From contig JANSXP010000015.1 of the NCBI GenBank assembly GCA_024742875.1, positions 1 through 64,000 on the forward strand: DNA of 64,000 bases, read 5' to 3'. Below, one piece after another: positions 27,965 to 31,541 of this stretch. The notes below the pieces were generated by a model, which made no database searches, was not told the origin of the DNA, and saw nothing but the letters and a program-made list of their open reading frames with translations. Every line of letters begins with the position of its first letter. Positions within the stretch are counted from its first letter, which is position 1. The stretch comes from Planctomycetaceae bacterium (GTDB lineage: Bacteria > Planctomycetota > Planctomycetia > Planctomycetales > Planctomycetaceae). Both the position numbers and the translations under genes were made by a program.

Positions 27965-29470
27965 ATGTCGCGTTCGAGTTTTCTTCCCCCACTGCGAACT
28001 CTGCTGGTCGCTTTTGTTTCCTGCTGTGGCACCGCGAGTGCTCAATACGAAGGGGCTGTGCCACCACCGGAAAAATTTGCGGTCGGTTTTCAGAGTATTA
28101 CCGAAGCCGACTCCGAGGAACTGCTGAAGGTCATCGCCGGTGAGGAATTTGCCGGTCGTGGGACCGGACAGGAAGGGTATTTGAAGGCGACCCGATTCGT
28201 GGCAGAACAGCTGGAGGCCTCTGGCTTTCAGCCGGGTGGTCCTGACGGCTCCTGGTTCCAGCCGCTGGCTTTTATTCGGGCGGATGTCAAGACAGACAAA
28301 TCCGGCTTTCAGTCCGACGGTGACAGCCTTGTAAACGGCGACGAACTGGGAGTCTCCAGTTACTTCGGCGATTTTGAGGGGACACTGCCACTCACCTTTG
28401 TTAAAGCAACCAGTCGTCCGCCGCAGATTGAACAGGGGCAGATGGAAGGCAGGATTCTCGTGATCCAGTCGCTGTCGCGAATTCGGCCCGGCAATCAGTT
28501 TGTGGAGAAATCCGGAGCGGATGTTGTCGTCGTGGTGACGCGTGCTTCACGCGTGCGAACGCAGACTGTGTTTCAGCAGGAAACGACCGCTGGCAGCACA
28601 CCGATGATCACGATGAGTCCGGCGACCGCCAACAAGCTGGCGACTGCCTGCGGACTGAACGAATCCTTCTTTGCGGACACGGCGCCGAAGAAGAATCTGA
28701 TTGTCTCATCGTCGGCGGAGCTGTCGTGCCAGTTGTCTGTCAGCCGAGAGTCCGTTGATGTGCCGAATGTGGTTGGCTGGTACCCCGGCTCTGACGAATC
28801 ACTGCGTCATGAGCATGTCTGTATTGGCGCTCATCTGGACCATCTGGGTGTGCAGCAGGACAAAGTGTACCCCGGGGCTGATGACAACGGTTCGGGTTCC
28901 ACCAGTATCCTGCAGATCGCGCGGGCGATTCACGCGAATCCTGTGAAGCCCAAACGCAGCATTCTGCTGATTGCTTTTTGTGCGGAAGAACGCGGGTTGC
29001 TCGGGTCGCGGTTTTATGCAGCCAATCCCACTCATCCGATTAGTGATATGGTCTGCATGCTGAACATCGACATGATCGGTCGCAATGAAGAAGGCCCCAA
29101 CGAAACGGCTGAAGACAACATCAACACCATTCATCTGGTGGGCAGTAAGCGAATCTCCATGGACCTTCATGACCTGACGATGGAAGCAAATAAATGTGTC
29201 AATTTCGTCTTTGAATACGATCAGGAAGGGGTCTACACCCGCAGCGATCATGCCAACTTTGCCCGCCAGGGGGTCCCGATCACGTTCCTGTTCGGGGGCT
29301 TTACGCCACGCTATCACCAACCATCCGATACACTCGAAGGTATCAATTTTGCAAAGATTGCCAACTGCGCCCGGCTCAACTATCTGACGCTGATGATGGC
29401 CGCAGAGCACGGTCACTTCGAGAAGAATGGAGAGGATGAACTGCGCAAGCGATCCGGGGATGCTCAGTAG
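27965..29470 (+). CDS. M28-family zinc aminopeptidase, secreted
   Basis: Removes N-terminal residues from peptides using two zinc ions. A signal peptide precedes AQYEG (residues about 8-27). A PA-like insert occupies about 100-240. The M28 metal ligands are all visible: His in GAHLDHLG (near 287), Asp in GADDNGSGS (near 303), the Glu pair in CAEERGLLGS (near 340), Asp in NIDMIG (near 367), and His in RSDHANFARQGVP (near 428). Length (501 aa) is normal for the PA-containing branch. It is followed by a strong intrinsic terminator, so it is probably a separate unit from the selenoprotein gene downstream. Confidence 0.93.
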   Translation: MSRSSFLPPLRTLLVAFVSCCGTASAQYEGAVPPPEKFAVGFQSITEADSEELLKVIAGEEFAGRGTGQEGYLKATRFVAEQLEASGFQPGGPDGSWFQPLAFIRADVKTDKSGFQSDGDSLVNGDELGVSSYFGDFEGTLPLTFVKATSRPPQIEQGQMEGRILVIQSLSRIRPGNQFVEKSGADVVVVVTRASRVRTQTVFQQETTAGSTPMITMSPATANKLATACGLNESFFADTAPKKNLIVSSSAELSCQLSVSRESVDVPNVVGWYPGSDESLRHEHVCIGAHLDHLGVQQDKVYPGADDNGSGSTSILQIARAIHANPVKPKRSILLIAFCAEERGLLGSRFYAANPTHPISDMVCMLNIDMIGRNEEGPNETAEDNINTIHLVGSKRISMDLHDLTMEANKCVNFVFEYDQEGVYTRSDHANFARQGVPITFLFGGFTPRYHQPSDTLEGINFAKIANCARLNYLTLMMAAEHGHFEKNGEDELRKRSGDAQ

Positions 29471-29507: not shown

Positions 29508-29538
29508 CCTCCGGCCTGTCGTGGTCGGAGGTTTTTTT
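29508..29538 (+). terminator. Rho-independent terminator after the M28 peptidase
   Basis: A 9-bp stem CCTCCGGCC/GGTCGGAGG (one G-U pair) with a 6-base loop, followed by seven T. It sits 37 bases after the peptidase stop and ahead of the selenoprotein gene. Confidence 0.85.
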
Positions 29539-29612
29539 GTGGCTAAAATCACCAGCAGAGTCTGGCGGTTGGCCAGGCGTCGCCCCATGATCATCAACAC
29601 AAGGAGACAGAT

Positions 29613-29963
29613 ATGGCGAGCAAAGTGGACTGGAGCTATCACCGCAAGGGCTGAACGTCCTGCACCCGCGCGCAGGAGTTTCTTGCGACTGAAAGTGTGG
29701 AAACCAAAGAAACGATCGATGCCAAAAAACAGCGGTACGGCGCTGAAGAGGCGGTCGCCCTGCTGAAGGGCATGAGCAAAATGGTGGTCGCCAAGGGGAA
29801 GAAGGTTACCGAGGTCGATCTGAAGAAAGACCGTCCTGCGGATGAAGAGCTGGCTAAGCTGATGCTTGGTCCCACAGGTAATCTGCGAGCCCCCACAATG
29901 AAGATTGGCAGGACGGTCCTGATTGGCTTCAACGCCGATGCCTACTCTGAGATCTTTGGATGA
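29613..29963 (+). CDS. ArsC-family selenoprotein (UGA codon 14 read as Sec)
   Basis: ATG 29613 has AGGAG about 6 bases upstream. The frame reads 13 codons, an in-frame TGA at 29652-29654, then 102 more sense codons to a TGA at 29961. Read as selenocysteine the N-terminus is VDWSYHRKG-U-TSC, a U-x-x-C redox motif placed right after the first strand, as in ArsC/Spx-like thioredoxin folds. Downstream parts (RAQEFL; VVAKGKKVTEVDLKKDRP; GPTGNLRAPTMKIG with the likely cis-Pro) fit that fold. The product is 116 residues, normal for the family. Databases contain an 'ArsC family (seleno)protein' group in planctomycetes, which this matches from memory. Standard gene calling would truncate it to an 88-residue ORF from 29697. 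Likely a cytoplasmic thiol/selenol oxidoreductase; substrate unknown. Confidence 0.85.
29655..29687 (+). promoter_or_regulatory. Candidate bacterial SECIS element
   Basis: Immediately after the UGA there are two overlapping hairpins. Hairpin B, CGCAGGA-GTT-TCTTGCG at 29671-29687, has a 7-bp stem with one G-U pair and a small loop starting with G, centred about 25 bases after the UGA; spacing and loop match bacterial SECIS rules. Hairpin A, TCCTGC/GCAGGA at 29658-29677, has an 8-base loop and a possible AAC/GTT extension across a bulged G, but sits closer to the UGA. The two exclude each other. I favour B. Confidence 0.6.
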
Positions 29964-30170: not shown

Positions 30171-30209
30171 AAAAAAAGGGGCACTGGTCTTTCGACCAGC
30201 GCCCCTTTT
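30171..30209 (-). terminator. Intrinsic terminator after the HU gene
   Basis: Stem of GGGGCACTGGTC against GACCAGCGCCCC (one mismatch) with a TTTC-type loop. It is flanked on the left by seven A, which read as seven T on the minus strand, so it terminates the HU transcript 31 bases after its stop. The run of four T on the right could also serve the + strand selenoprotein unit. Confidence 0.85.
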
Positions 30210-30239: not shown

Positions 30240-30566
30240 TTAGACCATGTCTTTCAGGCCCTTCAGTGGCGTAATTTTCACAACGTTGCGAGCAGGCTTG
30301 GCTGCGAAAACCGTTGGCTCTTTGGTGAAAGGGTTGATGCCGGGACGCTCTTTGGTAGCAGGCTTGCGAACCACTTTGATCTTCATCAGACCAGGAATGT
30401 TGACCACGCCTGGACCCTTCTTGCTCAGGTTCTTGCCGATCAGTTCGCCCAGAGAGTCAAGGAAATCGCTGACTTCTTTGCGAGACATGTCGTTGGCTTC
30501 CGCCAGCGAGTTGAGCATCTCAGATTTGGTCATCGGCTTGCCAGCGGCAGCTGCTTTCTTTGCCAT
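30240..30566 (-). CDS. HU/IHF-family DNA-binding protein
   Basis: Small basic nucleoid protein, 108 residues. After an Ala/Lys-rich start (AKKAAAAGKP) comes the usual helical dimerisation part (TKSEMLNSLAEANDMSRKEV) and the DNA-bending arm region (RKPATKERPGINPFTKEPTV), which contains the intercalating Pro in RPGINPFT. The C-terminal FAAKPARNVVKITPLKGLK is typical of planctomycete HU-like proteins. The start has a Shine-Dalgarno AAAGGAAG. A strong promoter precedes it and a terminator follows, so it is an independent, highly expressed unit. HU and IHF subunits cannot be told apart here. Confidence 0.95.
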   Translation of the reverse strand: MAKKAAAAGKPMTKSEMLNSLAEANDMSRKEVSDFLDSLGELIGKNLSKKGPGVVNIPGLMKIKVVRKPATKERPGINPFTKEPTVFAAKPARNVVKITPLKGLKDMV

Positions 30567-30794: not shown

Positions 30795-31541
30795 CTACTG
30801 ACTGGCGGCAGCCCCGTGCGGGGCATCACCAAGATTCACCAGCCAGACGTCCTGCAGCGTGTTGACAACAGCGTTCGCGAGCGGCCACCAGCGAACACTG
30901 TTTTCCATCACTACACGGTCGGCACTGATGATGATGGCGTCCTGCGTGTCGATTAGCTGCCGATCAGGATTCAGGTGCAGGTCGGCTGTCCAGTTCCACT
31001 GCTGGTCGGCGGCCACCTTTCGAATCAGAGTGGCCAGTCGTCCGCTGTTGGAGACCGGACGGTCCAGCCACCAGTGGGCACTCGCCACACGATACTCTGT
31101 CAGCAGACGCCCGATAAGGATCAGGGCCGGCTCTGTTTCTTCCACGGTACGGTAAGTACCGTGCATGCTGGCCATATCTCGAATGACGCCATCCCGGCAG
31201 CTCAGCAGAACGCCGCCGGAAAGTGCGGCCTCAATCGTGGTCAGGAGATTGAAGCCATCAATGGCAACGGCGGCGCCGGTCAGTTCCCTGAGTTCTGCCC
31301 TGCGGTCCAGACGCAGCTGTCGCGCTTCGTCGGAGCAGGCGGCACGCATCACGGCGGTCCGCTGACGTTCCGCCAGTTGGTAACGATCGCCCACCAGTTT
31401 CAAAGCGGACGGCAGAACGTATCCACGTCCAAACAGCCACGAGAGATCGGAGACCGCCTCACGCAGCGGCCGATGTTGCGGTGATGAGAACAAATCGCCG
31501 TCCGCCGGATGAGGGCCGCGATGACGTCGACGATCTGCCAT
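30795..31541 (-). CDS. DUF434 domain-containing protein
   Basis: 248 residues, soluble, no signal. The N-terminal part has the DUF434 hallmark RGYVLPSALKLVGDRYQL (about 39-56) followed by RQR. The middle and C-terminal part (GAAVAIDGFNLLTTIEAALSGG; IISADRVVMENSVRW) looks like a nucleotide-binding or nuclease-like alpha/beta fold, but no activity is established for the family. It starts 23 bases after bamA and is likely co-transcribed with it. Family recognition is from memory of the motif. Confidence 0.8.
   Translation of the reverse strand: MADRRRHRGPHPADGDLFSSPQHRPLREAVSDLSWLFGRGYVLPSALKLVGDRYQLAERQRTAVMRAACSDEARQLRLDRRAELRELTGAAVAIDGFNLLTTIEAALSGGVLLSCRDGVIRDMASMHGTYRTVEETEPALILIGRLLTEYRVASAHWWLDRPVSNSGRLATLIRKVAADQQWNWTADLHLNPDRQLIDTQDAIIISADRVVMENSVRWWPLANAVVNTLQDVWLVNLGDAPHGAAASQ

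Follow-up and report, generated by a model that had tools for sequence, protein, structure and literature searches.

Is the TGA at positions 29652–29654 of this planctomycete DNA a genuine stop, leaving only a short open reading frame (ORF) behind it, or is it a selenocysteine (Sec) codon inside a longer gene, and what might the longer product do? The locus lies in a window of 64,000 nt (positions 1 to 64,000 of contig JANSXP010000015.1, assembly GCA_024742875.1, Planctomycetaceae bacterium), to which the coordinates below refer unless stated otherwise. A first-pass annotation had proposed a Sec-encoding gene at this place, an interpretation that is well supported by the comparisons reported here. 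Judged on sequence, TGA 29652 is almost certainly read as Sec in a gene that only appears to be cut short, and the product is most likely a selenol–thiol redoxin of the UxxC type.

Reading frame and conservation of the TGA

The gene occupies positions 29613–29963 on the plus strand. From ATG 29613, the frame passes through 13 codons, reaches TGA 29652 as codon 14, continues without interruption through codons 15–116 (102 sense codons) and closes at a second TGA (29961–29963), as first described. We took this second TGA as the true stop; homology ends there, and the best hairpin 3′ of it has only 4 bp. Directly 5′ of the ATG, a Shine–Dalgarno-like AAGGAG can be read from the sequence, with its GGAG (29603–29606, plus strand) lying 6 bases from the start codon. 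In the same frame, the ORF list contains only an 88-residue ORF from GTG 29697, from which the UxxC motif is missing, in agreement with the earlier statement that ordinary calling would lose the active site.

Upstream of the locus, an M28 peptidase gene (27965–29470) is followed by a terminator-like hairpin with a T-run (29508–29531, plus strand), and the selenoprotein gene is therefore probably carried on its own transcript; a promoter scan of the gene’s region found no sigma-70-like site. Downstream, an HU-type DNA-binding gene (30240–30566) is encoded on the opposite strand. Between these two convergent genes lies a strong terminator-like hairpin (30174–30209) that may serve both. Beyond the HU gene, a DUF434/DUF5616 protein is encoded on the minus strand (30798–31541), followed by an Omp85/POTRA gene.

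Translated with Sec at position 14, the 116-residue product matched the NCBIfam profile NF041106, ‘ArsC family (seleno)protein’, at 147.1 bits (cut-off 85), with residues 5–111 covering positions 1–107 of the 107-position profile. Its motif, U14-T-S-C17, has the U/CxxC form of that family. A search of 392 sampled genomes of the phylum with NF041106 gave matches of E 0.001 or better in 112 genomes and matches above the cut-off in 80. We aligned 83 homologous rows, 81 above the cut-off and two just under it. Identity between the window protein and the other 82 rows ranged from 35% to 73%. In the comparison with homologues that the first-pass annotation had suggested, the column of the first TGA holds TGA in 72 rows, Cys in ten and Asp in one, so that 82 of the 83 rows have U or C at position 14, and the partner Cys17 (codon 29661–29663) is present in all 83. 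Arg11, Gly86, Gly89, Leu91, Pro94 and Gly105 are likewise invariant, and Arg92 is found in 82 rows. The same TGA stands in the Sec column of a congener (G307) and in contigs from an uncultured member of the Planctomycetaceae (L050) and from the Planctomycetota (L051). An SD-like tetramer was found no more than 20 nt from the assigned start in 54 of the 83 rows. The single Asp row (L093, codon GAC) is a second copy in genome G045, which also has a TGA copy; Cys17 is kept in the Asp row.

These data bear on the view that TGA 29652 is a real stop and that the locus is either an ordinary 88-aa gene starting at 29697 or a pseudogene. The mechanical ORF list does return that ORF, but strand 1 and the two redox residues fall outside it, the SD-like site precedes the upstream ATG 29613 and the part 5′ of the TGA is conserved across the phylum sample together with the TGA itself. 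We find this view scarcely credible. The TGA maintained in most rows and in L050 and L051, together with a family match over the whole length, goes well past what chance would yield and is not the pattern expected of a sequencing error or a lone pseudogene.

Selenocysteine machinery and a hairpin downstream of the UGA

The first-pass annotation had proposed a genome search for selA, selB, selC and selD, with a lack of selB/selC as grounds for refutation; all four are present in the source genome (8.18 Mb in 168 contigs, 98% complete), and the Sec reading was not refuted. SelA (406 bits), selB (335 bits) and selD (256 bits) all scored above their cut-offs, and selC was found as a tRNA-Sec with anticodon TCA at 77.8 bits (cut-off 47). 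Two further genes in this genome carry TGA at known Sec sites. One is a SelW-like gene with the TGA in a CxxU motif (G000:C61:53429-53635, locus L143, minus strand); the other is a formylmethanofuran dehydrogenase subunit B-like (FmdB-like) gene with the TGA before HGP, giving U-HGP (G000:C125:13039-14139, loci L144 and L145, minus strand). Both motifs are tabulated as Sec sites in PMC13188914. A formate dehydrogenase search of the source genome gave 13 matches, none above the cut-off.

Bacterial SECIS elements are described as stem-loops just downstream of the UGA with a small apical loop containing G (PMC1088965). In the window, a SECIS-like hairpin of 7 bp with a GUU loop lies at 29671–29687 on the plus strand, with 23 nt from the UGA to the loop G, which is the common place for the family. 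Minimum free energy folding of the window’s RNA prefers another, overlapping hairpin (29658–29677) over this one, and the window’s own folding z-score of −1.1 is unremarkable. Across the family, the downstream stem-loop with a small apical loop containing G was found. Stems reaching 6 bp, with a G among the first two loop bases, were present in 47 of the 72 Sec rows versus 16.4 expected under synonymous recoding, compared with two of the 11 non-Sec rows (2.2 expected) and three of 49 sequences after terminal TGAs; by that definition, 25 of the 72 Sec rows have no stem. In 40 of the 47 stems, the loop is of AGUU or GUU type and lies no more than one base from the common place. Folding was also compared at 13 places along the gene, and the excess in Sec rows peaked at +9 after the UGA codon. 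Mean z-scores at this place were −2.2 in Sec rows versus −0.9 in non-Sec rows (Mann–Whitney p 0.0006); the latter have a weaker excess and also fold somewhat better than recoded sequences.

A sequence signature accompanies the extra pairing. Of 68 distinct Sec rows, 38 have AGUU or GGUU at a fixed distance from the UGA and four more have it one base nearer, mostly within a stem whose own sequence varies among lineages. When pairing was scored in a fixed register over the 38 rows with AGUU or GGUU at the main place, 54% of positions were paired, versus a mean of 47% and a maximum of 51% in 500 shuffles; a register with the loop one base shorter gave 68%, a value without its own shuffle control that we set aside. 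RNAalifold returned an empty structure for the 68 distinct Sec rows and for two subsets, for which we suspect the mixed loop sizes. The Rfam model SECIS_1 found no match in the source genome and was silent on the controls too, and an Rfam scan of the gene region gave four matches, all far under gathering scores. In the decoding scheme that we propose, SelB and charged tRNA-Sec(UCA) would decode UGA 29652 with the aid of the hairpin just downstream, inside the coding region, and UGA 29961 would terminate translation.

Fold, kinship and probable activity of the product

We consider it highly probable that the locus encodes a 116-residue selenoprotein made by way of SelB, tRNA-Sec and the hairpin, and that this protein is an ArsC/Spx/YffB-like redoxin with Sec14 and Cys17 as its redox pair. 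The ArsC/Spx-like thioredoxin fold anticipated in the first-pass annotation is backed by profiles and, less firmly, by a structural model of moderate confidence. Sequence profiles place the product near 2m46 and Spx. The AlphaFold2 model, built from three sequences (pLDDT 81, pTM 0.75), has the strand and helix order of a redoxin, with an N-terminal strand-helix-strand and residue 14 just before helix 1. Its nearest PDB structures were YffB, Spx, ArsC-related proteins, glutaredoxins and some glutathione transferases, at Z values of at most 7.4 and a best Foldseek E of 0.005, which are consistent with the fold, not decisive for it.

Disulfide oxidoreductases show this pattern, in which a nucleophilic Sec is followed at three residues' distance by an invariable Cys. 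In the corresponding cycle, Sec14, placed after the first strand, would attack an oxidised substrate such as a disulfide, Cys17 would resolve the Sec14 adduct to give a selenenylsulfide and thioredoxin or a low-molecular thiol would reduce the latter. Gene neighbourhoods, surveyed at the 83 loci over 6 kb per side where the contig allowed and for ORFs of at least 80 aa, yielded no clue to the substrate. Five neighbour clusters were common to at least three families; the widest, an ABC ATPase, reached only five families at mixed positions, and therefore no shared operon is seen around the gene across these loci.

The name given to the family suggests a different activity, namely that of a selenium-based arsenate reductase in which Sec14 attacks arsenate like the Cys of plasmid-type ArsC and is regenerated by Cys17 or a redoxin. 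Several observations point this way. The read-through product scores 28.8 with Pfam ArsC, slightly above the gathering score of 24, and its profile kinship to the true ArsC of relatives is distant but clear (hhalign probability 94.8%). The active-site His of ArsC, four residues before the nucleophile, aligns in the product together with the nucleophile itself; it corresponds to His10, which is His in 68 of the 83 rows. The source genome has no TIGR00014 ArsC, and reviews use the name arsenate reductase-like for the family. However, TIGR00014 is absent from the 13 family matches of the product at E up to 1, and the product carries a second Cys in its UxxC where the aligned ArsC have CxxS. Three arginines are reported to be needed by E. 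coli ArsC. In an alignment with five true ArsC of relatives, the residues that we take to correspond to these arginines land on Val59, Ala93 and Phe106 of the product; among the 83 rows, position 93 is Ala in 79 and Ser in four, and position 106 is Phe in 74, Tyr in eight and Trp in one. Lys or Arg stands at position 61, two residues from the first arginine place, in 77 of the 83 rows, with a gap there that makes the placement uncertain. A true TIGR00014 ArsC was found in five of 20 near relatives. G307 and G024 have one alongside their NF041106 protein, and none of the five shared neighbour clusters resembles an arsenic gene. The classical hallmarks of ArsC, a TIGR00014 match and the three active-site arginines, thus appear to be missing from the product. 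Since its arginine places hold Val, Ala and Phe although His and nucleophile align, arsenate reduction is not our first reading and we regard it as unlikely, and we argue that the name arsenate reductase-like reflects fold, not function. YffB is also without the ArsC arginine set and has been proposed as a glutathione-dependent thiol reductase (PMC3169414).

Spx offers another comparison, together with YffB (TIGR01617; PDB 3gfk, 6ghb and 1rw1). The product is alike in fold type, in the place of the motif and in an IGFN-like C-terminal strand, and it could be a regulator of the Spx kind whose binding to RNA polymerase is controlled by a selenenylsulfide switch that replaces the CXXC disulfide. 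UxxC occupies the place of the Spx CXXC, Spx is among the PDB matches, TIGR01617 Spx/MgsR gives a weak match (E 8.6e-8) and a gene without fixed neighbours would be compatible with a regulator. We nevertheless consider this very unlikely. The TIGR01617 score of 32.5 bits is well under the cut-off of 75.05, the product, at 116 aa, compares with 131–132 aa for the Bacillus-type Spx chains examined, and Gly53, aligned with an Spx Gly that is presumably required for contact with polymerase alpha, is Gly in just 31 of the 83 rows. The product also differs from Spx in having Sec instead of Cys, and the Arg that precedes the conserved Pro in Spx is Ala or Ser in NF041106 rows. Fainter still is the prospect that planctomycetes use an Spx-like protein acting on transcription as a redox sensor, switched by a selenenylsulfide where a disulfide would be usual; if true, one residue of such a sensor would read both selenium status and oxidant stress.

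The UxxC selenol–thiol redoxin favored here is a further member of a family that is already in print, which bears out the earlier statement that an ArsC-family selenoprotein group is known. NF041106 (ArsC_rel_Se_1) is matched over its full length, has UxxC with Sec first and differs from the window protein in nothing of substance. Table 1 of PMC13188914 gives NF041106 as ‘arsenate reductase-like protein’ with UxxC, with a citation to the GOS paper of 2008 (PMC2398784), where ‘Arsenate reductase 2’ appears with cd03032, UxxC and 42 selenoprotein sequences; we equate the two through this table and its citation. The ArsC 1 selenoprotein of marine metagenomes is likewise ArsC-type with Sec but has UxxS, not UxxC, and forms a separate family. 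Selenoproteins have also been reported in planctomycetes of a red alga (PMC4807772). Among the matches listed in the open-licence literature, there was no functional study of the NF041106 family.

Exchange of selenocysteine and cysteine in relatives

The form of the gene was compared with the presence of SelA. Among the 72 genomes that carry a TGA form, 68 gave a SelA match, versus two of the ten with a non-TGA form only (Fisher p 5.7e-7 in a test that ignores kinship). The four TGA genomes in which no SelA match was found (G173, G264, G302 and G332) are 77–91% complete; their TGA copies (L097, L099, L077 and L070) may reflect incomplete assemblies or perhaps another form of SelA. The two Cys forms in genomes having SelA are L073 (G135) and L132 (G268), and the change to Cys is therefore not solely a matter of lost machinery. 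Within the window’s own family, the gene occurs in eight of 28 sampled genomes, with TGA in that of the window and its congener and Cys in the other six, which are without strong SelA.

In a tree of the 83 proteins, the Sec label changes at least seven times; the Sec/Cys column was left unmasked, with Sec rows carrying X, treated as a gap. Support is weak at the deep forks (the root split has 52% bootstrap), and the tree cannot tell a Sec-first from a Cys-first order. Sec and Cys appear to have been exchanged repeatedly in this family, tracking the presence of SelA.

What the present analysis adds to the published family is this further member, a tally of its forms across the sampled genomes of the phylum and a comparison of the hairpins. 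For this planctomycete, the comparison confirms a selenoprotein gene where plain calling truncates it; for the family, it adds evidence of a shared place for a SECIS-like hairpin and of repeated exchange of Sec and Cys together with SelA presence.
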